Assembly: GCF_000218875.1 (NCBI RefSeq)
Contig: NC_015709.1
Location: 1,178,001 to 1,242,000 of the forward strand
Length of the DNA: 64,000 bases
Direction: 5' to 3'
Source of the DNA: Zymomonas mobilis subsp. pomaceae ATCC 29192
Lineage (GTDB): Bacteria > Pseudomonadota > Alphaproteobacteria > Sphingomonadales > Sphingomonadaceae
Part shown: positions 5,180-42,329 of the stretch, piece after piece
Position numbering within the stretch: the first letter of the stretch is position 1
Layout of the letters: the number at the start of each line of letters is the position of its first letter
Position numbers and translations under genes: made by a program
Notes under the pieces: model-generated
Database searches by the model: none
What the model saw: only the letters and a program-made list of their open reading frames with translations
What the model was told of the DNA's origin: nothing

Positions 5180-5269
5180 CAGTTCATCCCCGCGTGGGCG
5201 GGGAACACTGCTAGTGATAACGCCACGACAAATTCTAGCCCGGTTCATCCCCGCGTGGGCGGGGAACAC
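5180..5269 (-). CRISPR. Detached two-repeat type I-E CRISPR fragment
   Basis: Two 29-base repeats (5180-5208 and 5241-5269) flank one 32-base spacer (5209-5240), giving the same 61-base period and repeat sequence as the main array at 10329-11028. The first copy differs at its second base (CAG for CGG), as expected for an old trailer-end repeat. By orientation relative to the main leader this fragment is leader-distal. No leader or cas gene adjoins it. The base after 5269 is already phage tail-gene sequence, so the array appears to have been split by the segment 5270-10328. Confidence 0.93.
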
Positions 5270-10328: not shown

Positions 10329-11028
10329 AGGTTCATCCCCGCGTGGGCGGGGAACACAATGATCCTGAAGGCACGCCAGATTGGTGCAACGGTTCATCCC
10401 CGCGTGGGCGGGGAACACTGTACGCGGGCAAAGCATGAAGCAATCTCCTACGGTTCATCCCCGCGTGGGCGGGGAACACGAAAAACGTTAATCAGTATGT
10501 GTTAATTGCGTCGGTTCATCCCCGCGTGGGCGGGGAACACAAGGTACGGGAAAGTCTCATGTTATCGCGGCGCGGTTCATCCCCGCGTGGGCGGGGAACA
10601 CTGCGACACGGACAACGATAACTGGCGTTGAGACGGTTCATCCCCGCGTGGGCGGGGAACACGCTGAAAAATAATCGTAAATATGTCGTTTTTTCGGTTC
10701 ATCCCCGCGTGGGCGGGGAACACGGACAGGCAACGGAACCGCATCCGACAGCCTGCGGTTCATCCCCGCGTGGGCGGGGAACACGTAGCAAGCACTGGAA
10801 TTGGATTATACAAAACCGGTTCATCCCCGCGTGGGCGGGGAACACTCTCACTGACTGGCCACCCTTGCCAGTAGAGACGGTTCATCCCCGCGTGGGCGGG
10901 GAACACACGTGCGAATACCGGAACTAGAGTTTTAGGATCGGTTCATCCCCGCGTGGGCGGGGAACACATCAATGAGATGGTTGGAAGAACTATCATCGAC
11001 GGTTCATCCCCGCGTGGGCGGGGAACAC
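10329..11028 (-). CRISPR. Type I-E CRISPR array, 12 repeats and 11 spacers
   Basis: Twelve 29-base repeats start at 10329, 10390, 10451, 10512, 10573, 10634, 10695, 10756, 10817, 10878, 10939 and 11000, always 61 bases apart, so every spacer is 32 bases. The plus-strand repeat starts CGGTTCATCCCC and ends GGGGAACAC; its complement is the E. coli-like form starting GTGTTCCCCGC and ending GGGGATGAACCG. The array is therefore transcribed on the minus strand from a leader next to cas2, giving crRNAs with an AUGAACCG 5' handle. All repeats look identical except the leader-distal copy at 10329, whose first base is A. The newest spacers lie near 11000. I found no match of any spacer within this window. 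Confidence 0.98.
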
Positions 11029-11090
11029 TCATCCTTGTAAGTGCTTGATATTCAAATAGATTCACGATGTCAAAAAATCTACCAACTTTT
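11029..11090 (-). promoter_or_regulatory. CRISPR leader with IHF site and Cas1 upstream motif
   Basis: On the minus strand, reading toward the array, TTGGTAGATT (11076-11085) lies about 57 bases before the first repeat and a perfect IHF consensus TATCAAGCACTTA (11038-11050, pattern WATCAANNNNTTR) lies 9 bases before it. Both elements and their spacing parallel the E. coli type I-E leader, where IHF bending brings the upstream motif to Cas1-Cas2 for spacer integration. The leader sits between cas2 and the array. Confidence 0.85.
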
Positions 11091-11114
11091 TATAGGATAT
11101 TTAGAGCCAAAAAA

Positions 11115-12345
<1,231 letters not shown>

Positions 12346-12348
12346 GAT

Positions 12349-13083
12349 TTAATCACTCAAAGGACGAAGTAACAGCAATCCCAATCCAAAAGCTTTGCCG
12401 CGCCCGATGCCTGTAAGTAATGTCTGCTGCAAAGATTCGGGATGTGTGACCTTTAAAACACCTTCAATATCGACAAAAGAAAAGGTCGCTTTGCTTTTAA
12501 AAGCCATGTTGCTTTCGCCTTTTTGGGGTCTTCTAGGGATTTGATGCCGACCATAATTCATAAGCCCACAACGATCCCGTTCAATTTCTGCCCCTCGAGA
12601 CACAAGACGAGAAGCCAGCCACTCCAAAACGACATCTTCTTTTTCTTGGGAAGTCAGAGAATATCCTTGCTGTTTTTCTGCATGAATAAGCACATCGGTC
12701 GGCTTACTACGGGCCTGATACGGCTGAGAAAGCGCAATCGTCGGATTGACTCGAAGAGAAAATCCATAGCGTTTCTGGGCGACAAGATGAGGCGTATAGT
12801 CTTTGCTTTCCAAAGACCAGATTTCCGCCTTGTCTTTGGGAAAACGAGACGAGACTATAAGAAAGCGATCCTCATCAAAAGCCCGATAGATAAAATCGCG
12901 TTTTGCGGTCGGGTCATCGTCAAAAAGCGACCAGATAAGCTGATGACCGGCATCGGCATATTGAAGCTCTTTTTCAGAAGTATTCGGATCTATCCCCGAC
13001 GAGAGTTTTAATAATCTTTCCGAGATATTCAGCCTTGCCGAAATATCTTTCGAACGCAATTCTGCCAGAGAAAAATAGCTCAT
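12349..13083 (-). CDS. cas6e: crRNA endoribonuclease Cas6e (CasE)
   Basis: The start at MSYFSLAELR overlaps the cas5e stop by ATGA. The 244-residue product has the AGHQLIWSLFDDD segment with the conserved histidine of Cas6e and a glycine-rich C-terminal loop (TGIGRGKAFGLGLLLL) that binds repeat RNA. The enzyme cuts the pre-crRNA within each repeat and stays bound to the 3' hairpin as part of Cascade. The repeat here forms the expected CCCCGC / GCGGGG stem. Confidence 0.95.
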   Translation of the reverse strand: MSYFSLAELRSKDISARLNISERLLKLSSGIDPNTSEKELQYADAGHQLIWSLFDDDPTAKRDFIYRAFDEDRFLIVSSRFPKDKAEIWSLESKDYTPHLVAQKRYGFSLRVNPTIALSQPYQARSKPTDVLIHAEKQQGYSLTSQEKEDVVLEWLASRLVSRGAEIERDRCGLMNYGRHQIPRRPQKGESNMAFKSKATFSFVDIEGVLKVTHPESLQQTLLTGIGRGKAFGLGLLLLRPLSD

Positions 13084-13886
13084 TGCAGCCCCTCGATTCC
13101 GATAACAGAAGACATGGCAAAATTCTGGGGCTCTTCCCATGGTAACTGCCCTTCGGGACGATCTGAAAATTGCCAAAGAGCCCTATTGCGTAAAGCATCC
13201 CGCCTGACGCGTATCAGGGAAGTTTGTTTCTCTTCCTCTGCTAATCCCGCACCGGTTTCAAACCAAATTGGCTCCTGTTTGCGTTCACATTCATAACGGT
13301 CTCGCTTTTTTTTCAAGGGACAGTCATCGTTATAAAAATGAAATGCCTTGCGTAGGCCGGACGCTGTCATGATTTTTGGATAGGGTGGCGCAGATAAAGG
13401 ACAGGATTTACGTCCTAAATACAGAACAAAATTGGGATATTTCAGGAATTTTCCTAAAAGAGACAAATCCACAAGCTTTTCAGACTTTGCCCATAAGGCG
13501 ACTGTAAACGCAACATCGGTTTGATAAAAACGTTCAGAGATGACCGTATTGAGCTTATCTTTTGTATTCAAATCGCCCCTACGTGTAGAAATATCCTGAC
13601 CCGCTTTTTGTCTTTTTTTCCGATCTGCCTCCGATGGAATTTGAGCCGTGTGGAAATCACGCAACTTTTGCGGCGCGACATCCCTATGCACCGCAAAACC
13701 TAAATTTTCATCCAAGGCAAGAAGTTTAGGATCTTGGCGACCAAGGCCTTTAGCTGCCGCGACAAGGCCCAATATCGCCGATTTCGAAGGCACATCCCAA
13801 AGGCTGCGCCTTTCTCCCACTGCAATTTCGCCAAACGCTGCCATGGGGCCTTTTAGACGAAAGAGTAGAAATTCACGGTCAGACAT
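13080..13886 (-). CDS. cas5e: Cascade subunit Cas5e (CasD)
   Basis: This 268-residue Cas5e starts with EFLLFRLKGPMAAFGEIAVGE and continues RRSLWDVPSKSAILGLVAAA, the N-terminal RAMP pattern of the family. It contains the PYLGRK-type motif as LYLGRKSCPLSAP. Cas5e caps the 5' handle of the crRNA in Cascade. It sits 3 bases after cas7e and shares an ATGA overlap with cas6e, within the same operon. Confidence 0.95.
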   Translation of the reverse strand: MSDREFLLFRLKGPMAAFGEIAVGERRSLWDVPSKSAILGLVAAAKGLGRQDPKLLALDENLGFAVHRDVAPQKLRDFHTAQIPSEADRKKRQKAGQDISTRRGDLNTKDKLNTVISERFYQTDVAFTVALWAKSEKLVDLSLLGKFLKYPNFVLYLGRKSCPLSAPPYPKIMTASGLRKAFHFYNDDCPLKKKRDRYECERKQEPIWFETGAGLAEEEKQTSLIRVRRDALRNRALWQFSDRPEGQLPWEEPQNFAMSSVIGIEGLQ

Positions 13887-13889
13887 CGG

Positions 13890-14966
13890 TTAAATCCGGT
13901 CAATAATATTTTGAGCTTGTTCTACCAAGGCAGCGAAAGGAAGGCTTTCACTATTGCCTACATTCATTTCAACACTTTCAATCCTTTCATCATAGGCTTG
14001 GGTATAGTTTTCCTGAAGCTTTTTCAGACGTTTGATAGATGCTACCATATAATCATCATCGTCATTATCTAATCGGCCAACCGGACACTGGAAAGCTTGC
14101 GCCAATGAGCGCGGCGCTTCGGTGCCAATCTCTTCCAGAATAAAATGAGCGCGGCTATGGCTGGCATAGCTATTTTGTTTGCCTCTGGGGCTAACCTTCG
14201 CTGCGGCTTCAATCAGTGCTTTTAAGGTTGATTTTGCGAGCGCTTTATCGCCATCAAGGTTATTCAAAAGTAAATCTGCATTAACACATATATATAAGTA
14301 GAATGTACCTGCGCCATATTGCTGGACACCCAGAAAACCCGCCCCATTAACAGCAAGATCATCTTCGTTTTTCAGATCATCAACGGCTGTGTAAAAGTCA
14401 TCCTCTACCGCGATGCGGTGTGTAGTGAAGGCATGGGCGACCTGCACTGCGGCTTCAACATCATAACCGGGATTATCCGCTAACATCCGGCCAAACATGG
14501 CAATATCAGCCGCGCGAGGCTTATGTTTCAGGATAGTTAAGCCTTTTAAATCTGGCTTTTCTACAGCCGATAACTTTTCAACCAATTCATCAAGTAAGGC
14601 TAACTCGTCAGGCCCCAAATGTACTAACTGTTCTGTTTTAGATTTGTCTTCTTTTTTAGGTTTTCCTAACTTGGCGGCGGTAATAACAGATTCAGCACGT
14701 TCTTGTGCTTCCGCTTCATCAAGACCGGCGGCTTTTAAACCATCTACCAAGGACTTCATAAAAACGATCGAACGCTTACCCAAAGCTTGCGGTAAATTAT
14801 CTGCAAAAATATCAGATTCACGAAAAGCGCGCTTTAAGCTTTGCGATGAAATACGAAGACGTTCTGCGCCCCCATATTTTAAAGTTTTTGGCCGCCCCGT
14901 ATCATCACGGTTTAGATTGGAGGCCGGATAACTATTTAAAATATGAAGTTGAATAAAATGTGCCAT
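13890..14966 (-). CDS. cas7e: Cascade backbone subunit Cas7e (CasC)
   Basis: This 358-residue Cas7e begins FIQLHILNSYPASNLNRDD and has the RISSQSLKRAFRES segment diagnostic of the family. It also contains FGVQQYGAGTFY-like sequence (FLGVQQYGAGTFYLYICVN) and the PRGKQNSYASHS region. Six copies of Cas7e form the helical backbone along the crRNA spacer. Length and motifs are normal. It follows cse2 by 44 bases. Confidence 0.95.
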   Translation of the reverse strand: MAHFIQLHILNSYPASNLNRDDTGRPKTLKYGGAERLRISSQSLKRAFRESDIFADNLPQALGKRSIVFMKSLVDGLKAAGLDEAEAQERAESVITAAKLGKPKKEDKSKTEQLVHLGPDELALLDELVEKLSAVEKPDLKGLTILKHKPRAADIAMFGRMLADNPGYDVEAAVQVAHAFTTHRIAVEDDFYTAVDDLKNEDDLAVNGAGFLGVQQYGAGTFYLYICVNADLLLNNLDGDKALAKSTLKALIEAAAKVSPRGKQNSYASHSRAHFILEEIGTEAPRSLAQAFQCPVGRLDNDDDDYMVASIKRLKKLQENYTQAYDERIESVEMNVGNSESLPFAALVEQAQNIIDRI

Positions 14967-15010
14967 TTTTTCTTTATCCTAAAATAAAATTATAGATTTT
15001 GAGAGTATTT

Positions 15011-15640
15011 TTATGCTTCCAATTCAGGCACATTATGAATGTTGTAATATCGACGTGCCCATTCTCGCTTAATTCTGTCGCCTTCTTTTTTATCAAACCA
15101 TAAATAAAGAGAACGTCCCAATTCCCCGACATCGACAGGCGCGTTATTAAGTAAAGCAATCAATCTGCGCGCTTGGACAAATAATTGGCTTTCCGTTTCA
15201 GCACGCATCAACGCAATAAAACGCATTTCATTCATAAGGGGCTTATCGCCCTCTTTCTTGCTTTTGGAACCAAGATAGGACGCAGGATGTTTTTCGGCAT
15301 ATTCTTTTACATGTGCCAAGGCATAAGCTGTCAGGGTCAACCAATTTTCACGGGCGAGTTTGTTTTTCTTGGACAGCTCATTCCATTTTTCAAATGCACT
15401 TATTTTCCTATACAGACTACGGAAAGGGGTGATTTCAAGGGCTGTAATCACATCGGGTTGAGCAATTTCTTCATCGCCAATCAACGCAAGGCGTTTCAAT
15501 TTGGCGACCGAAGCACGATTTCGATCTGGATTGTTTTTATTTATAAATTCATTCCACCAATCCTTAAAAATAGGATGATATAGGTCTCGGGATTCATGAC
15601 TCTTTGGCTGGGATGACTGTTCATCTTTAGTCTTTGTCAC
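15011..15640 (-). CDS. cse2: Cascade small subunit Cse2 (CasB)
   Basis: This 209-residue, helical and basic protein matches the Cse2 small subunit in size, position and pattern (FKDWWNEF near the start, NRASVAKLKR, and DVGELGRSLYLWF near the end). Cse2 dimers stabilise the displaced strand in the Cascade R-loop. Its ATG overlaps the cas8e stop by ATGA, indicating translational coupling. Confidence 0.92.
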   Translation of the reverse strand: MTKTKDEQSSQPKSHESRDLYHPIFKDWWNEFINKNNPDRNRASVAKLKRLALIGDEEIAQPDVITALEITPFRSLYRKISAFEKWNELSKKNKLARENWLTLTAYALAHVKEYAEKHPASYLGSKSKKEGDKPLMNEMRFIALMRAETESQLFVQARRLIALLNNAPVDVGELGRSLYLWFDKKEGDRIKREWARRYYNIHNVPELEA

Positions 15641-17265
15641 GCCGCTTTCCTTTTACTTTTGCCACTTTGTTTTGATTGCAAACCCAATGCTGATTGAGCC
15701 ACTTTTAACCATAAAAGCTTGCTCAGATTATCTTGTGCAAAGACTAATCGACGGGGATTTTGACCTGTTAAGCTGCTGACATCGACAAAGGCATTAAAAA
15801 CCGAATATGCTTTTTGACATAAATTTTTATGCCATTCTTGTCGCAAATCTATATCATTTATACCTAGACAGCCGCTTTGGGCGCTACGCTCCTTTAAGAC
15901 CTTCAGATATTGTTGAAAATCAGGTTGCGTTATGTCCCAAAACTGATCAGAGGCCTCTTTTAAAGATTCTTTGGCATTGGAATCAATGCGATAGCTCCCA
16001 TCTTTCTGTTCCTGTCCATAAAGAGCAATACGACAGGTAGAAAGAACTGCGCGTGCAGCTTCATCTGTAGCATCAATGAAATCTTTGACTGATTCTTTGA
16101 GATTTTCATGGCTATCAGGAAGCCACGGCGTTTCAGCATGAAGCCATTGCCGAGCCTTCCACTTATCCATATCATAGCCAAAGGCTTCTATTTTTTCTGG
16201 CGTCGCGACATCCAGAATATCTTCGATTTCTTCTTTGCGGGATCCCCAATTTTTTAAAGACTGTGCTGGAGTACCGTTAAAGCCCCACCATCCCAGCCAG
16301 TCTTTATAACTGGAATTTCCCGCATGAGGATGGATGGGTAATAATTTCTTATTTTTATCGCGGTAATAAGGGGATAAGGGATGTTGCCAACATTGATAAT
16401 CGCCTCCAGGATTTTGGTTGCGATAATTCTCAACAACTAGCCCTTTTTGGCCAGTCAGACTGCATTCCCCTTCAGTAAAAACCAAACGAATTCGACGAGG
16501 ACAAGCAAAGAAAGCCAATGCGAGCGGTCGTCCATCTGACGAAATGCTTACCCCCTTATTGGATAGAATTGTTGGTTGCAGCCATGGGAATATCTGCGCT
16601 TGAATAGCCGCCAAATCCTTCTCATCATGGTTCTCAAGATAGGGTATATTGGCCCAGACTTTATCCCATAATCTCGTCATTTTTTGGCCTGATCGTAAAG
16701 GCGCAATCAGAGTTGTAAGAGGCCCCCCGCCCCGCAGAGAAGTCCGATAACCCCTCCCGCCCGAAGGCGCATAAGTCTGGAGTGTGATAAGTGCTGCCGC
16801 TGCATAAGGCTGACAGAGCGCCGTTACTCCACCTCTTTTGACGAAAAGATCGGTATTATTTTTTTCAGTATTTTCCCCCGGTGCCTCTATCAACAAACTA
16901 CTGACCGGCTTCGGCAATTGGGCTTCAAGCGAATCAAAATCCTGAAAAGCTAAAGGGCCATTCCCGTCAAAGTTCAAAGAAGGAAGAAAAGGACACCATT
17001 TTTCCTGAAGCTGCGCTGATGTAGGCGGCGTTTCAAAATATTCAGCCCATGCACCAGCCTCCCTCTTCAGGAAAGGAAAAGCTAGAAAAGTCAAACCGAT
17101 CAAGAATTCTGAGACGGCCGCATTCCAATCAACACGGGGAAAATCGAGCGCCATAACGGGATCAGTGGCAAACTGATCTGTCAGGCCACAAGGAGAAATA
17201 TAGTCTTTCTTCCCTGATAACCGTCTAACCTCAAGCCAAGGATCGGCTAACAAATTAAAAGGCAT
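15637..17265 (-). CDS. cas8e: Cascade large subunit Cas8e (Cse1/CasA)
   Basis: The start is placed at MPFNLLADPWLEVRRLSGK because CasA proteins begin this way and an AAGGAT ribosome site precedes it; a longer frame to 17325 exists but adds an atypical leader. The 542-residue product recognises the PAM and recruits Cas3. The YAPSGGRGYRTSLRGGGPL region corresponds to the conserved middle of the family. It is the first gene of the Cascade operon, downstream of a 628-base AT-rich gap after cas3. Confidence 0.95.
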   Translation of the reverse strand: MPFNLLADPWLEVRRLSGKKDYISPCGLTDQFATDPVMALDFPRVDWNAAVSEFLIGLTFLAFPFLKREAGAWAEYFETPPTSAQLQEKWCPFLPSLNFDGNGPLAFQDFDSLEAQLPKPVSSLLIEAPGENTEKNNTDLFVKRGGVTALCQPYAAAALITLQTYAPSGGRGYRTSLRGGGPLTTLIAPLRSGQKMTRLWDKVWANIPYLENHDEKDLAAIQAQIFPWLQPTILSNKGVSISSDGRPLALAFFACPRRIRLVFTEGECSLTGQKGLVVENYRNQNPGGDYQCWQHPLSPYYRDKNKKLLPIHPHAGNSSYKDWLGWWGFNGTPAQSLKNWGSRKEEIEDILDVATPEKIEAFGYDMDKWKARQWLHAETPWLPDSHENLKESVKDFIDATDEAARAVLSTCRIALYGQEQKDGSYRIDSNAKESLKEASDQFWDITQPDFQQYLKVLKERSAQSGCLGINDIDLRQEWHKNLCQKAYSVFNAFVDVSSLTGQNPRRLVFAQDNLSKLLWLKVAQSALGLQSKQSGKSKRKAA

Positions 17266-17893
17266 AAAAAATATCCTTTTGCCGTAAGGAAGAATATTGA
17301 AATTATTTTCATAATTAAATGGCACAAGGAAAGTTTAACAAAAGTTAATTTTTTGAGTTATGTTATTTAATAATTTTTTTTAAAAGAAATTAAGATATAA
17401 ATATTTGTTTTTATTTAAAAAAATTATTTTTTATACACTCTTCAATAAAATTTTCTTAAAAAAGTAATATCATTGAAGCATTTCAAGAGTTATACTGTCT
17501 TAAAAGGTCCCTCTTTATTCTTCCTTACTTCAAAGAATATTTTTGGCTGGATTAGAGAGATAAGATCACTGTCCGTGGAGGATAGGTATTATCTAAATGA
17601 TCATGAGAATAATGATACACGATATACTCTAATATTAGTAATAATATTGCGTCATCATTTTAAAATTATGACTTTGGTTTATCGGCTGATCATCACGCGA
17701 CTCTACCTGATCAGATTAGCGTTGCTATTCATTCGAAATGAATAAGTATTTTTTCAATAAATTAATTTATTAAACAAAATAATAAAAATCACATATCAAA
17801 AAAGTTATCACAAAATAAACTACGGATATATCCTATAAAAAATTCATCAATACTTATATAGTAAACAAAAAATAATATTTATTACATTGAATA
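17266..17893. other. AT-rich intergenic region between cas8e and cas3
   Basis: This long AT-rich stretch presumably contains the promoter of the Cascade operon. A few poor inverted repeats around TGATCA are present near 17690-17720. A TTG-started open frame on the plus strand (17473-17745) has no ribosome site, low-complexity hydrophobic composition and no recognisable family, so I do not call it. A gap between cas3 and cas8e is also seen in E. coli. Confidence 0.6.
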
Positions 17894-20581
17894 CTAAATT
17901 ATAGATAAACCTTTCTCAAAAGAATAATAGACTTTTCGTTCTTTTCCTGATGGATCAATAATACAGTTTTCCCAAACACCTTTCTCTGGGCTCGACCTTA
18001 AGGGTAAAATACGAGGCGCCTCATAATGTTTCGACCATTGATCTTGCATCTTCTGGACAGAAGCATTGAGAGAAGCATCCTCTATTTCTGCCACTTCTTT
18101 AAACTGATTATGGCGCAAGGTGATTTCAGATAAACGCCAAGCCAGCCTTTCATCCTCTGCTTGTGCCCAAGGCGTTAAATGCCCGTTTCCCCAGCATCCT
18201 AGACGCAAGGTCACCCCCTCCGCGTCTAATCGAGTAGGTGTTTTGGCATTCACCTCGAAGAGGGTCTCTTTATACTCATTCTCTATTTTTAAAAAATTGA
18301 AGTTAGCCATACTGCGTTTTTCGTTACGCTTACTGCACGCAATATTACTCGCCTGCTGTAATGCCTCAGGACAATCACCATTCTTATCAAAAACAGGTTC
18401 AATCAAAGAACGAGGAGATTGGCTCAAACAAGGCAGTCCACCCATCTTTTCTAATGTATACACTGTCCGCCAAAGCTGTCCGAAATCACTATAAACATAC
18501 TGTCCTTTAGGAAAAAGACTGCTGACCCAATCTTCTGGCGCATCTGCTATTGCGGAATGACTTACAAGCCATAATTCAGGCGGTGATCGATCGGGGCGAT
18601 GGGTATGGCGATGCAACCGCCCTGCCCGTTGAATAAGCAAATCCATCGGGCATAAATCGGTTGCCATATAGTCAGCATCCAAATCGAGGGATTGCTCTAC
18701 CACCTGTGTAGCAATAACGATTTGTCCCGCCCGTTGTTGGATCGTGCTCTCTTTTCCCAACAGCATTAAAATTTCATTTTCACGCTCTTGTCGGTCTTTC
18801 AGACAAAATCGAGCATGAAATAAATGCAATTTCACGGTTTCAGGGGCATGATCTTTTAACCATTCGTAAGCTTCTAACGCCTCGGAAACCGTGTTACGGA
18901 TATAAAGGACGCAATTCCCTTGCGATGCCTTAAATAATATCGTCTCTAAAACCTGTTCAACAGAAGAGAAAAATTTAACCGGAAGGTCTCTGCGACTTCC
19001 GCGCAAGGCTGCAAGCGGATATTCGTCAGAGTGTTTCTCGGGATCGACATAAGTCACCAAAGGAAAAGGGGCATTCCTCTCTACGACGTTATAATCCCCA
19101 CCAAACGCCTGCACAAATCCTCTTTTTTGCGCCTGTATCAGGGTTGCCGATAGAATAATAACCGATCCCCCTAAGGCAGCTTGAAATTCTATCAGCGCTT
19201 CGATGCCCTTTGTCATATAGCCGTCAAAACTATGTGCCTCATCAATAATAAGAACACGACGGGATAAGGCCGCTAAACGCAAATTGTTATGGCGAACGGG
19301 TAGAACGGCTATTAAAGCTTGATCAATCGTTCCGATGCCGAATTGCGCTAAAAAAGTATATTTCTTATTTTCAGCAAAGAAAGCCGCACAATTGACTTCT
19401 GCAGGTATATCATCAGGGTCATTGCTGCCTTTTTTATATCGAGAGACACCCTCAATCGATATTTGGAATTTTTTATGAAAATCACGAGCGCTATGAGCCA
19501 GCACTAACGAAGGCAAAGCATTATCAGCAAATAACGCCCGATATCCCTTTTCTATACGAGCATAAAGGCCATTCGCCGTCGCCATTGTCGGAAGCGCCCA
19601 ATAAATACCTTCAGCAGAGCCACTTTGCATCAAGCGATGCGCCAGAATAAGCGCCGCTTCGGTTTTACCGGCACCGGTAAAATCTTCAATAATATAGAGA
19701 TGGCTGCCCTTATTGGGTTGCTGTTGCTCCGCCCATTTTTGTAAAGGCGTGGCCGTTACATCTTCTTTGAAATAGCTTTTTAAATCAAAATGCGTGGCGA
19801 TAGCGGCTTCTGCTAACTGCGCTTCTGTGATAGCGGTTTTTGCTTTTTCTTGGGCTTTTTTCCAATAATCGGCCAAGGAAAAATCTGGTTTTTCATAAGG
19901 GAACCATCCTTTTTCGGCATTGGAACCGAGCCAATCGGCTAGGATAACTAATCCTGCAATGCACCATGTAGCTTCTTTAAGGGCATTTTTTTCAGATCTT
20001 TGAATTTCTTTTCGTTCTGGCCAACCGAATAAATCAAAAATATCTTTGATATAATTCTGGGCATCGTCAATAGCGGATGAAGCGATGGCATTACCTAAGT
20101 TTATTTCTGTTGCCGGTGTTCCGTGATGGGAAAAAGCGGCATGAAGCCAGTCGTCAAAATATTCGTTTTTCTTAAAAGTGGGATCAATTCTGTCTTTGCA
20201 TTTTTTCCAAAAAGTATATCCAACATCACCATGCCCATATCTCAACCAGTCCTCGCTATTCAGCGTATGCCCTGATATTTCTTTAGCTAAATCCTCATTT
20301 TTAGATTGGAAATTTTGAGCAAATTTTCCAATATCGTGCAAAGCCGCCATCAAGATAAGTTGATGTTTCACCTCTGTTTCAGAAAAAGCGCCTTTTTTAG
20401 CGATTTCTTGCACATAACGGGGTCTAATATCCAAAATCGCTTCCATCGCAGCTGCAACATCCAAGCTATGATAGGCCAAAGGATGCCACAACATTTTTTC
20501 AGGTAAATCATCAAGCGTTTTATATTTTCCCCAATAGGATTTAATATATGGTTCAATAGGTTTTAAGAAAACAGAATTCAT
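17894..20581 (-). CDS. cas3: CRISPR-associated nuclease-helicase Cas3, type I
   Basis: This 895-residue protein has the fused HD-nuclease and superfamily 2 helicase layout of type I Cas3. The HD motif is at about 82-83 (ALHDIGKFAQNF), Walker A at about 300 (DFTGAGKTEAAL), the DEAH box in LIIDEAHSFDGY, motif III in ILSATLI and motif VI in QRAGRLHRH. It is recruited by Cascade to degrade target DNA. The gene is intact, of normal length and on the same strand as the Cascade genes. Confidence 0.97.
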   Translation of the reverse strand: MNSVFLKPIEPYIKSYWGKYKTLDDLPEKMLWHPLAYHSLDVAAAMEAILDIRPRYVQEIAKKGAFSETEVKHQLILMAALHDIGKFAQNFQSKNEDLAKEISGHTLNSEDWLRYGHGDVGYTFWKKCKDRIDPTFKKNEYFDDWLHAAFSHHGTPATEINLGNAIASSAIDDAQNYIKDIFDLFGWPERKEIQRSEKNALKEATWCIAGLVILADWLGSNAEKGWFPYEKPDFSLADYWKKAQEKAKTAITEAQLAEAAIATHFDLKSYFKEDVTATPLQKWAEQQQPNKGSHLYIIEDFTGAGKTEAALILAHRLMQSGSAEGIYWALPTMATANGLYARIEKGYRALFADNALPSLVLAHSARDFHKKFQISIEGVSRYKKGSNDPDDIPAEVNCAAFFAENKKYTFLAQFGIGTIDQALIAVLPVRHNNLRLAALSRRVLIIDEAHSFDGYMTKGIEALIEFQAALGGSVIILSATLIQAQKRGFVQAFGGDYNVVERNAPFPLVTYVDPEKHSDEYPLAALRGSRRDLPVKFFSSVEQVLETILFKASQGNCVLYIRNTVSEALEAYEWLKDHAPETVKLHLFHARFCLKDRQERENEILMLLGKESTIQQRAGQIVIATQVVEQSLDLDADYMATDLCPMDLLIQRAGRLHRHTHRPDRSPPELWLVSHSAIADAPEDWVSSLFPKGQYVYSDFGQLWRTVYTLEKMGGLPCLSQSPRSLIEPVFDKNGDCPEALQQASNIACSKRNEKRSMANFNFLKIENEYKETLFEVNAKTPTRLDAEGVTLRLGCWGNGHLTPWAQAEDERLAWRLSEITLRHNQFKEVAEIEDASLNASVQKMQDQWSKHYEAPRILPLRSSPEKGVWENCIIDPSGKERKVYYSFEKGLSII

Positions 20582-40609: not shown

Positions 40610-41287
40610 TTAAATAGTTATTTGTTGAAGATTATCATTTTGTCCTTTAGTAAAACCCCAGATATGCTCTGCAAAAACATGTCCCTTTCCTTTATAGAAA
40701 GCACCAGTATGATGAAGAGGTGTAAAATAATGGCTGGGCCATAAGGTATAGTTATATTGAAGATTCTCTCTATGGATTTCAGTTACCAACTGAGGTCCCG
40801 TAAGCTGCCAGAGAGGAATACCGAGAATAGTAGGTCTATTATAAATAGTTTCGATAAGTTTAGCGAGAAAAGGATGCTGGGGGACAGTCGCCATGACATT
40901 ATTACCTATAAGGTTAGGTCTTGTATGTTCGTTTTCCCAACCAAGACAAATGTCACTATCAAAAAGCCAATCTTCTAAGGGACGAACGCAATAACTGTCG
41001 GCATCAACATACAATCCACCTTCAAGGAAGAGAATTTCATAACGCATCATATCAGAAATCCCATGAAATTTCCTATATTCAAGAAGGGTTTCCATATGTT
41101 TGACATTATGCCACGGATGATTGGCAAAAATATTATTTTCCCATAATTTAACCCGCCAACTAGGATTTTTCTCAATCCAACTGTTAATGAAATGATTAGG
41201 TCGTTTACTCTGGTTACCAATCCAAATAATATGAATAGTTTTTGGTATAGATATTTTTTTAGTATTATATCCGTATTTATCGACCAT
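40610..41287 (-). CDS. Glycosyltransferase family 32 protein (OCH1-like)
   Basis: The start at MVDKYGYNTK is chosen because a perfect AAGGAGG lies just upstream. The 225-residue product has IPKTIHIIWIG, KNPSWRVKLW, SDMMRYEILFLEGGLYVDAD with the DxD sugar-nucleotide motif, and GNNVMATVPQHPFL. These are the blocks of GT32 glycosyltransferases. It is adjacent to the ter cluster with a 210-base gap. The acceptor is unknown. Confidence 0.85.
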   Translation of the reverse strand: MVDKYGYNTKKISIPKTIHIIWIGNQSKRPNHFINSWIEKNPSWRVKLWENNIFANHPWHNVKHMETLLEYRKFHGISDMMRYEILFLEGGLYVDADSYCVRPLEDWLFDSDICLGWENEHTRPNLIGNNVMATVPQHPFLAKLIETIYNRPTILGIPLWQLTGPQLVTEIHRENLQYNYTLWPSHYFTPLHHTGAFYKGKGHVFAEHIWGFTKGQNDNLQQITI

Positions 41288-41600
41288 ACTTCGCCTCCTT
41301 AACATATAAAAATAAAAAAATTCATCATTATACTCTATAAAAAAAATTTATTTACAAATAAAAGAAGTCATAAAAACAAAAATCATTTAAAATTTAAGAA
41401 AAACATTCTCAGAATAATATTCTATATTAATAAAATTATATTTTTTCTAAAAAATTTAGAAATAGCAAAAAATAAATAAATAGAAATGAGACTGTCTTTT
41501 TCCTTTAATATAACTGGGATACGAAAAATGGGCAGGAAGGCGCCTGTTTACGATAAATATCTCGAGGATTTATCCCGCTAATCCCTTCAATCATTATTCC
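41288..41600. other. AT-rich region between GT32 gene and orphan CRISPR leader
   Basis: Very AT-rich, with no gene on either strand. A segment at about 41563-41590 reads on the minus strand TTGAAGGGATTA then GCGGGATAAATCCTCG; its second half resembles the 3' half of the CRISPR repeat (GCGGGGATGAACCG) and lies where a first repeat would be relative to the orphan leader. The first half does not match, so this is only suggestive of a decayed repeat. Confidence 0.35.
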
Positions 41601-41602
41601 TA

Positions 41603-41690
41603 TAAAGGATTGATATTAAATATTTAAACACTATTCACGACGTCAAAAAATCTACCAAATTTTTATAAGCTATTTAGCCTAAAAAAACAG
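41603..41690 (-). promoter_or_regulatory. Orphan copy of the type I-E CRISPR leader
   Basis: Over about 50 bases this matches the leader at 11029-11110: ATTCACGA.GTC followed by AAAAAATCTACCAA, then TTTTTATA and TATTTAG, with only a handful of mismatches. On the minus strand it keeps TTGGTAGATT (complement at 41649-41658) and a perfect IHF consensus TATCAATCCTTTA (complement at 41603-41615), even though the bases between and inside them differ from the main leader. No intact repeat follows. The orientation is the same as the functional leader. Confidence 0.8.
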
Positions 41691-41726
41691 TTTCTTTTAA
41701 GCTTAATTTGATTCAAAAAATCAGGA

Positions 41727-41757
41727 ATAAAAAAGGCCACCCTTTTAAGGCGGCCTT
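41727..41757 (-). terminator. Rho-independent terminator after pal
   Basis: On the minus strand a stem AAGGCC.CC / GG.GGCCTT closes a TTAAAA loop and is followed by TTTTTTATT. It lies about 45 bases after the pal stop. Confidence 0.8.
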
Positions 41758-41798
41758 CTATTTGGTTCGGAATAATTTTACACTTTTGATTTACATCA

Positions 41799-42329
41799 TC
41801 AGTTAGGCGTGACTGTCACAGCGCGCCGGTTCTGAGCCCAAGCCTCCTCATCAGAGCCCAAAGCAAGAGGCCGTTCCTTACCATAGCTGATCACGCTGAT
41901 AGAATTGGCGACACCGCCCTTGGCAAGATAATCATGGACGGCATCAGCACGCTTTTCACCTAAAGCAAGGTTATATTCGCGCGTACCCCGTTCGTCGCAA
42001 TGACCTTCAATACTGACATGAACGTTGGGGTATTTCTTTAACCATCTAATTTCACGATCCAAAATTGCTGTGGCCGTGCTATCAAGATCATATTTGTCAG
42101 TTGCGAAATGGACCATATCGGTACCAACCTGACGTAAAAAATCAGCATGGGAGCCCGGAACAACCGTATCCTGAACTGAGCCCATATTACTACTATTGTT
42201 ATCAAGATGGGCCGGTGCTCTTGTTGCCGGTGGAGGTGGTAAGTTAGCCGCCTTGGGTTGATGATCCGAACAAGCGGCAAGTGCTGCTAATCCGGCGAAT
42301 AGACTTATCGTTAATTTAATATTAGCCAT
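41799..42329 (-). CDS. pal: Peptidoglycan-associated lipoprotein Pal
   Basis: This 176-residue lipoprotein has a signal peptide with lipobox LAAC at about residues 17-20 and a proline-rich linker. Its OmpA-like peptidoglycan-binding domain (VHFATDKYDLDSTA; VSIEGHCDERGTREYNLALGE) has the conserved D and R that bind diaminopimelate. Pal links the outer membrane to peptidoglycan and works with TolQRAB. It is the last gene of the tol operon, 120 bases after tolB. Confidence 0.95.
   Translation of the reverse strand: MANIKLTISLFAGLAALAACSDHQPKAANLPPPPATRAPAHLDNNSSNMGSVQDTVVPGSHADFLRQVGTDMVHFATDKYDLDSTATAILDREIRWLKKYPNVHVSIEGHCDERGTREYNLALGEKRADAVHDYLAKGGVANSISVISYGKERPLALGSDEEAWAQNRRAVTVTPN

Follow-up and report, generated by a model that had tools for sequence, protein, structure and literature searches.

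An orphan type I-E CRISPR leader in Zymomonas mobilis subsp. pomaceae, likely the stump of a lost third array

The genome of Zymomonas mobilis subsp. pomaceae harbors three copies of its type I-E CRISPR leader, the third of which stands alone on the minus strand at about 41594-41679 of the window, that is, of the whole stretch of 64,000 nucleotides analysed here (C1:1178001-1242000). Judged by sequence comparison, it is a genuine leader, homologous to those of the arrays of its own genome, and it is likely the stump of a third type I-E array that would have been lost from this site, leaving a leader that now drifts. When positions 41540-41720 were compared by BLAST with 40 genomes, two significant places were found besides the query itself, both in this same genome: the leader of array A3 (C1:1312060-1312146; E 2.0e-16, 78%) and that of array A2 (C1:1189048-1189114; E 1.3e-12, 84%). 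The latter upholds the homology with the functional leader at 11029-11110 that had been claimed in the initial annotation of this DNA. In the other 39 genomes, the best place reached only E 0.0125.

The whole genome (2,061,413 bases in 3 contigs) was also searched for the 26-nucleotide leader core. With up to 3 mismatches allowed, this core was found at three places in 2.06 Mb, two of which lie in front of arrays; since it occurs at just these three places, the element is not a scattered intergenic repeat, an alternative that the initial annotation had itself raised. The two functional elements that it had described, namely the anchoring motif and a perfect match to the IHF consensus, are both present (Table 1). 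The IHF match was scored, in the orphan and in the array leaders alike, against letters that we take to be the consensus; it starts at -22, exactly as in A2 and A3. Matches of 9/9 are not rare when considered alone, with 7 of them in the window on both strands.

Table 1. Orphan leader, expected repeat site and cas-linked CRISPR locus (coordinates of the window)
Feature	Position	Strand	Basis or remark
Leader core, anchoring motif TTGGTAGATT + TTGAC(G)TCGTGAAT	41633..41658	-	25/26 identical to both active leaders
8-bp insertion TTTAAATA, slippage-like of TTTAATAT	41621..41628	-	Alignments; the near-duplicate makes exact placement ambiguous
IHF consensus match TATCAATCCTTTA, 9/9	41603..41615	-	Consensus scoring
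Leader end TAGGAATAA; G->A at leader -2 and -5 relative to A2/A3	41594..41602	-	Alignments
Upstream leader flank GGCTAAATAGCTTATAAAAAT, partial similarity	41659..41679	-	Alignment
Expected site of first repeat; 11/28 matches, not significantly above controls	41566..41593	-	Alignment and controls
Leader A2 of the cas-linked array; core 11060-11085, IHF 11038-11050	11029..11110	-	Alignment
Array A2: 12 perfect repeats, 11 spacers of 33 bp	10330..11028	-	Repeat search
Type I-E cas genes Cas2, Cas1, Cas6e, Cas5, Cas7, Cse2, Cse1, Cas3	11115..20581	-	Pfam

The cas genes of the window encode proteins that all match their Pfam families (8/8). Array A3 is located outside the window, about 92 kb from the orphan leader (C1:1311054-1312057), and is composed of 17 repeats and 16 spacers. 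Its spacers 5 and 6 are identical, and three repeats at its far end carry one change each. Because A3 is a second array with a leader beyond the window, the orphan is the third leader of this genome. The earlier suggestion of a relic of a second array is therefore retained as regards an orphan leader and a relic, and corrected as regards the number.

A CRISPR leader requires correct spacing of its elements. As in an E. coli-type I-E leader, the orphan carries the anchoring motif TTGGTAG followed by an IHF consensus; unlike such a leader, it is 8 bp too long between the motif and the IHF site, is changed at position -2, and lacks a repeat-spacer array. Indeed, owing to the insertion at 41621-41628, the GGT of its anchoring motif starts at -63 from the junction, as against 54-55 bp in all nine alphaproteobacterial array leaders compared, of which A2, A3, and that of genome G406 were found independently of a leader-plus-repeat BLAST, whereas the other six are plasmid leaders (two near-identical ones being from Acidiphilium) that came from such a search, which may favour conserved spacing. 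The Roseomonas hit among these six covered just the IHF-repeat end of the query. The same distance is also 54 in the leaders of Vibrio halioticoli and Salinivibrio. The initial annotation was thus right that the motif and the IHF match are kept, but it did not report the 8 bp inserted between them.

The passages of PMC10011333 that deal with the E. coli leader place the IHF site at -9 to -35 and the Cas1-Cas2 contacts at -1 to -4, and describe an IHF-induced bend through which an element at -50 to -55 meets Cas1-Cas2; the need for correct spacing is also drawn from these passages. With their motif at 54-55 bp, the array leaders fit this layout. The orphan misses the position of the upstream element (about -50 to -55), its motif being present but with the GGT at -63, and docking of Cas1-Cas2 would presumably have been lost.

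A second distance is altered as well. The TTGACA-like box is separated from the hexamer at the IHF position by 25 bp in the orphan versus 17-18 bp in 9/9 array leaders, the hexamer having been chosen by a loose pattern near the expected place (a second, unlikely hexamer in A2 gave 28). The box and the hexamer are placed like a -35/-10 pair, which suggests that the insertion would break this pair too; in the array leaders, the -10 element of the pre-crRNA promoter may overlap the IHF site. A TTGACA-like box 17-18 bp before a hexamer at the IHF position was seen in leaders A2, A3, L099-L104, and L107.

The anchoring motif is a genuine I-E leader motif. Leader A3 together with its repeat matched 74 plasmid records, of which 8 of the higher-ranked were examined (H1, H3, H4, and H13-H17). 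The motif also precedes the I-E-type repeats of Acetobacter pasteurianus, A. persici, two Acidiphilium species, Roseomonas marmotae, Fuscovulum blasticum, and G406; in A. pasteurianus, both Acidiphilium, and Roseomonas, a Cas2e annotation adjoins the leader. Outside the genome under study, 6 of 9 leaders have an IHF match with 7-8 of the 9 consensus bases, starting at -21, and the best match is 6/9 at -31 in A. persici and G406 and 7/9 at -25 in Salinivibrio. Among 385 genomes drawn from the class, a leader match was obtained in three: Z. mobilis subsp. pomaceae itself, G406, where it is followed by an I-E-type array, and G416, where it was set aside as a chance match, with no array in the ~250 bases after it. 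Within the family of G406, the leader was found in one of nine genomes, G406 itself; it was found in none of four genomes reached via Gluconacetobacter and Commensalibacter loci, and viral contigs gave no exact leader match. The plasmid leader of A. persici (L104, about 290-312) harbors two GGTAGA motifs 13 bp apart before its array.

Preservation of the functional elements, with changes confined to free positions and linker bases, had been taken as what either selection on Cas1-Cas2 and IHF recognition or a recent relic would produce. Two substitutions contradict such a confinement: the last base of the TTGACA box is A in 8/8 non-redundant active leaders and G in the orphan, and position -2 is G in all eight and A in the orphan. 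When alignment columns were classed as conserved or free by six leaders of other species, which leaves small numbers, the orphan differed from A3 at 4/28 conserved and 3/32 free positions (p = 0.69) and from A2 at 4/28 conserved and 10/32 free positions (p = 0.14), the latter comparison leaning towards free positions; A2 and A3 differ from each other at 2/28 and 7/32 (p = 0.15). In these alignments, the conserved positions of the orphan show no significant sparing. Given this result, the +8 bp spacing, the missing repeat, and the lack of an acquisition-like direct repeat (see below), the proposed selection is not supported. Of the eight non-redundant active leaders, five likewise deviate at 2/17 columns that are invariant in the rest; the orphan deviates at 2/15. 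Because active leaders depart at a similar rate, the substitutions alone do not prove that the orphan is decaying, and the case against its function lies in the spacing and the missing repeat, not in the substitutions.

In a repeat search of the genome with up to 3 mismatches, no repeat was found at the orphan leader, in agreement with the earlier observation that no intact repeat follows it. A half-matching, decayed repeat had also been suggested, and this is unproven. The in-register site matches the repeat as given in Table 1, and the alignment one base off reaches 12/28. These two offsets are among the three best ungapped ones of a 297-nt stretch, which mildly favours a remnant. However, the anchored gapped score, calculated with the genome's own repeat as a query and two bases of slack, was reached in 7-12% of controls (459 of 4000 minus-strand positions drawn at random from the window, 299 of 4000 local shuffles), and the local gapped score was not significantly above that of shuffles (p = 0.30 over 297 nt, p = 0.27 over the first 60 nt). 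The E. coli-type repeat scored better (p = 0.007), but it was not counted, having been picked after looking. The repeat-like trace GCGGGATAAATCC at the junction may be real. Where A2 and A3 share the same base, the orphan departs from them at 7/58 positions in the leader versus 17/28 in the repeat (Fisher p = 5.7e-6). Selecting positions in this way enriches constrained leader sites and brings some bias, although the difference is wide. This points to a repeat side that was lost or replaced at the junction and did not fade at the same rate as the leader.

An acquired spacer would leave its mark as a direct repeat at a distance of ~61 bp. No direct repeat of at least 10 nt was found at this spacing in 41280-41740; the two detected there have spacings of 108 and 70. 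An open reading frame of 29 amino acids (MIEGISG...; 41505-41594, minus strand) starts one base before the expected beginning of the repeat, and no relative of it was found among the 39 other genomes (best E 0.33).

The surroundings were compared with the genomes of three other Zymomonas species. In all three, DNA similarity ends at the stop codon of pal (10-12 kb compared). The glycosyltransferase gene located 3' of the orphan lies elsewhere in one of them (G002) and was not found in the other two (G001 and G003). An array at the syntenic position between pal and this GT32 gene, for which the initial annotation had proposed to search, is present in none of the three. No significant leader match (0/3) and no I-E repeat (0/3) were obtained in these genomes either; no close Cas1 was found in G001, and G002 and G003 gave weak matches only, with 26-34% identity. 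The site after pal thus appears as a variable one that is without an array in the other species, the comparison being across species and with a single pomaceae strain. Searches with 41400-41800 against plasmids and with 41500-41620 against phages gave no match. The 295 bases at 41306-41600 gave weak matches in AT-rich DNA of the genus, the best outside their own place having E 1.4e-4. A contig search with Pal returned 35 loci, none titled Zymomonas, in a collection that may lack records close to the window.

The reading that we favour, a stump left by a lost third array, involves three steps. A leader with its array would once have been located after pal; the array would then have been lost, the break falling at the first repeat or slightly within it, so that the leader was left alone; and the remaining leader would finally have gained the slippage-like insertion and its substitutions. 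The orphan would be more of a fossil than a working part, and it is probably inert. Counter-evidence comes from the core and the IHF site, which are very well kept (25/26 and 9/9), and the reading is further weakened by the lean of the A2 comparison towards free positions and by the possible sampling bias among the leaders used for the spacing. As in degenerate or relic CRISPR loci, a leftover CRISPR piece is found away from the cas genes. In such loci, however, the usual remainder consists of repeats, whereas here the leader is kept and the repeats are gone. An orphan CRISPR leader without repeats was not found in the literature, within open-licence papers, which is weak evidence of absence.

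A leader that had been copied to this site alone, through ectopic recombination or gene conversion for instance, without ever having had an array, would look the same as a stump. Such a copy would account for a similarity that stops at the leader end and for the lack of a significant repeat remnant. It is nevertheless an unlikely origin, as no mechanism for copying just a leader is evident, the other two leader copies both have arrays, and the best ungapped repeat offset falls within one base of the expected place.

Somewhat less likely again is that the leader has been reused as a promoter or an IHF-controlled switch for the glycosyltransferase gene (40610-41305, minus strand). Its orientation is right for this role, and a promoter-like match, TTGACG-16-AATATT, is found on the minus strand at 41646-41619. 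By contrast, the region contains two promoter-like matches, one per strand, versus a shuffle mean of 3.0, the orphan does not keep the TTGACA-17-TATCAA layout seen in A2 and A3, and TATAAT hexamers at 41327-41332 and 41435-41440 (minus strand) are nearer to the gene.

That the orphan still works as an ectopic acquisition site, with IHF bending the DNA, Cas1-Cas2 docking at the motif, and prespacers being joined next to 41593, is very improbable. The anchoring motif and the 9/9 IHF match are kept and the same genome encodes Cas1 and Cas2, but the spacing is 8 bp too long, no repeat is recognisable, and the ~61-bp direct repeat expected as a trace of acquisition is absent. Slightly more doubtful still is a version in which the lone leader nucleates an IHF-Cas1-Cas2 complex of altered spacing, such that spacers enter repeat-less DNA and could seed a new array. 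The weakest proposal, and a barely credible one, is that a crRNA-like regulatory RNA of the CreA/CreR kind, which consists of a degenerate repeat and a spacer-like guide, is made from the orphan leader: GCGGGATAAATCC is at about the right place for the repeat, but the predicted fold of the 101-nt RNA is no better than that of shuffled sequences (z = 0.01), none of 6 Rfam matches reaches the gathering score, and there is no second repeat.

If the orphan is indeed the stump of a lost array, it has implications beyond this locus. Because CRISPR finders rely on repeats, they should miss a leader whose array has been lost, and the present case shows that an array-less leader can be detected from the leader sequence alone. 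Counting such stumps would allow the frequency of array loss to be estimated. In addition, the orphan provides a natural +8 variant with which the strictness of the motif-to-IHF spacing could be probed.

Finally, the window contains a mini-array at 5181-5269, made of 2 repeats and 1 spacer of 33 bp and devoid of a leader core. When its spacer was compared with the phage collection, nothing was found up to E 1. The mini-array sits in a group of phage-like tail genes, immediately upstream of a P2 GpU-like one.
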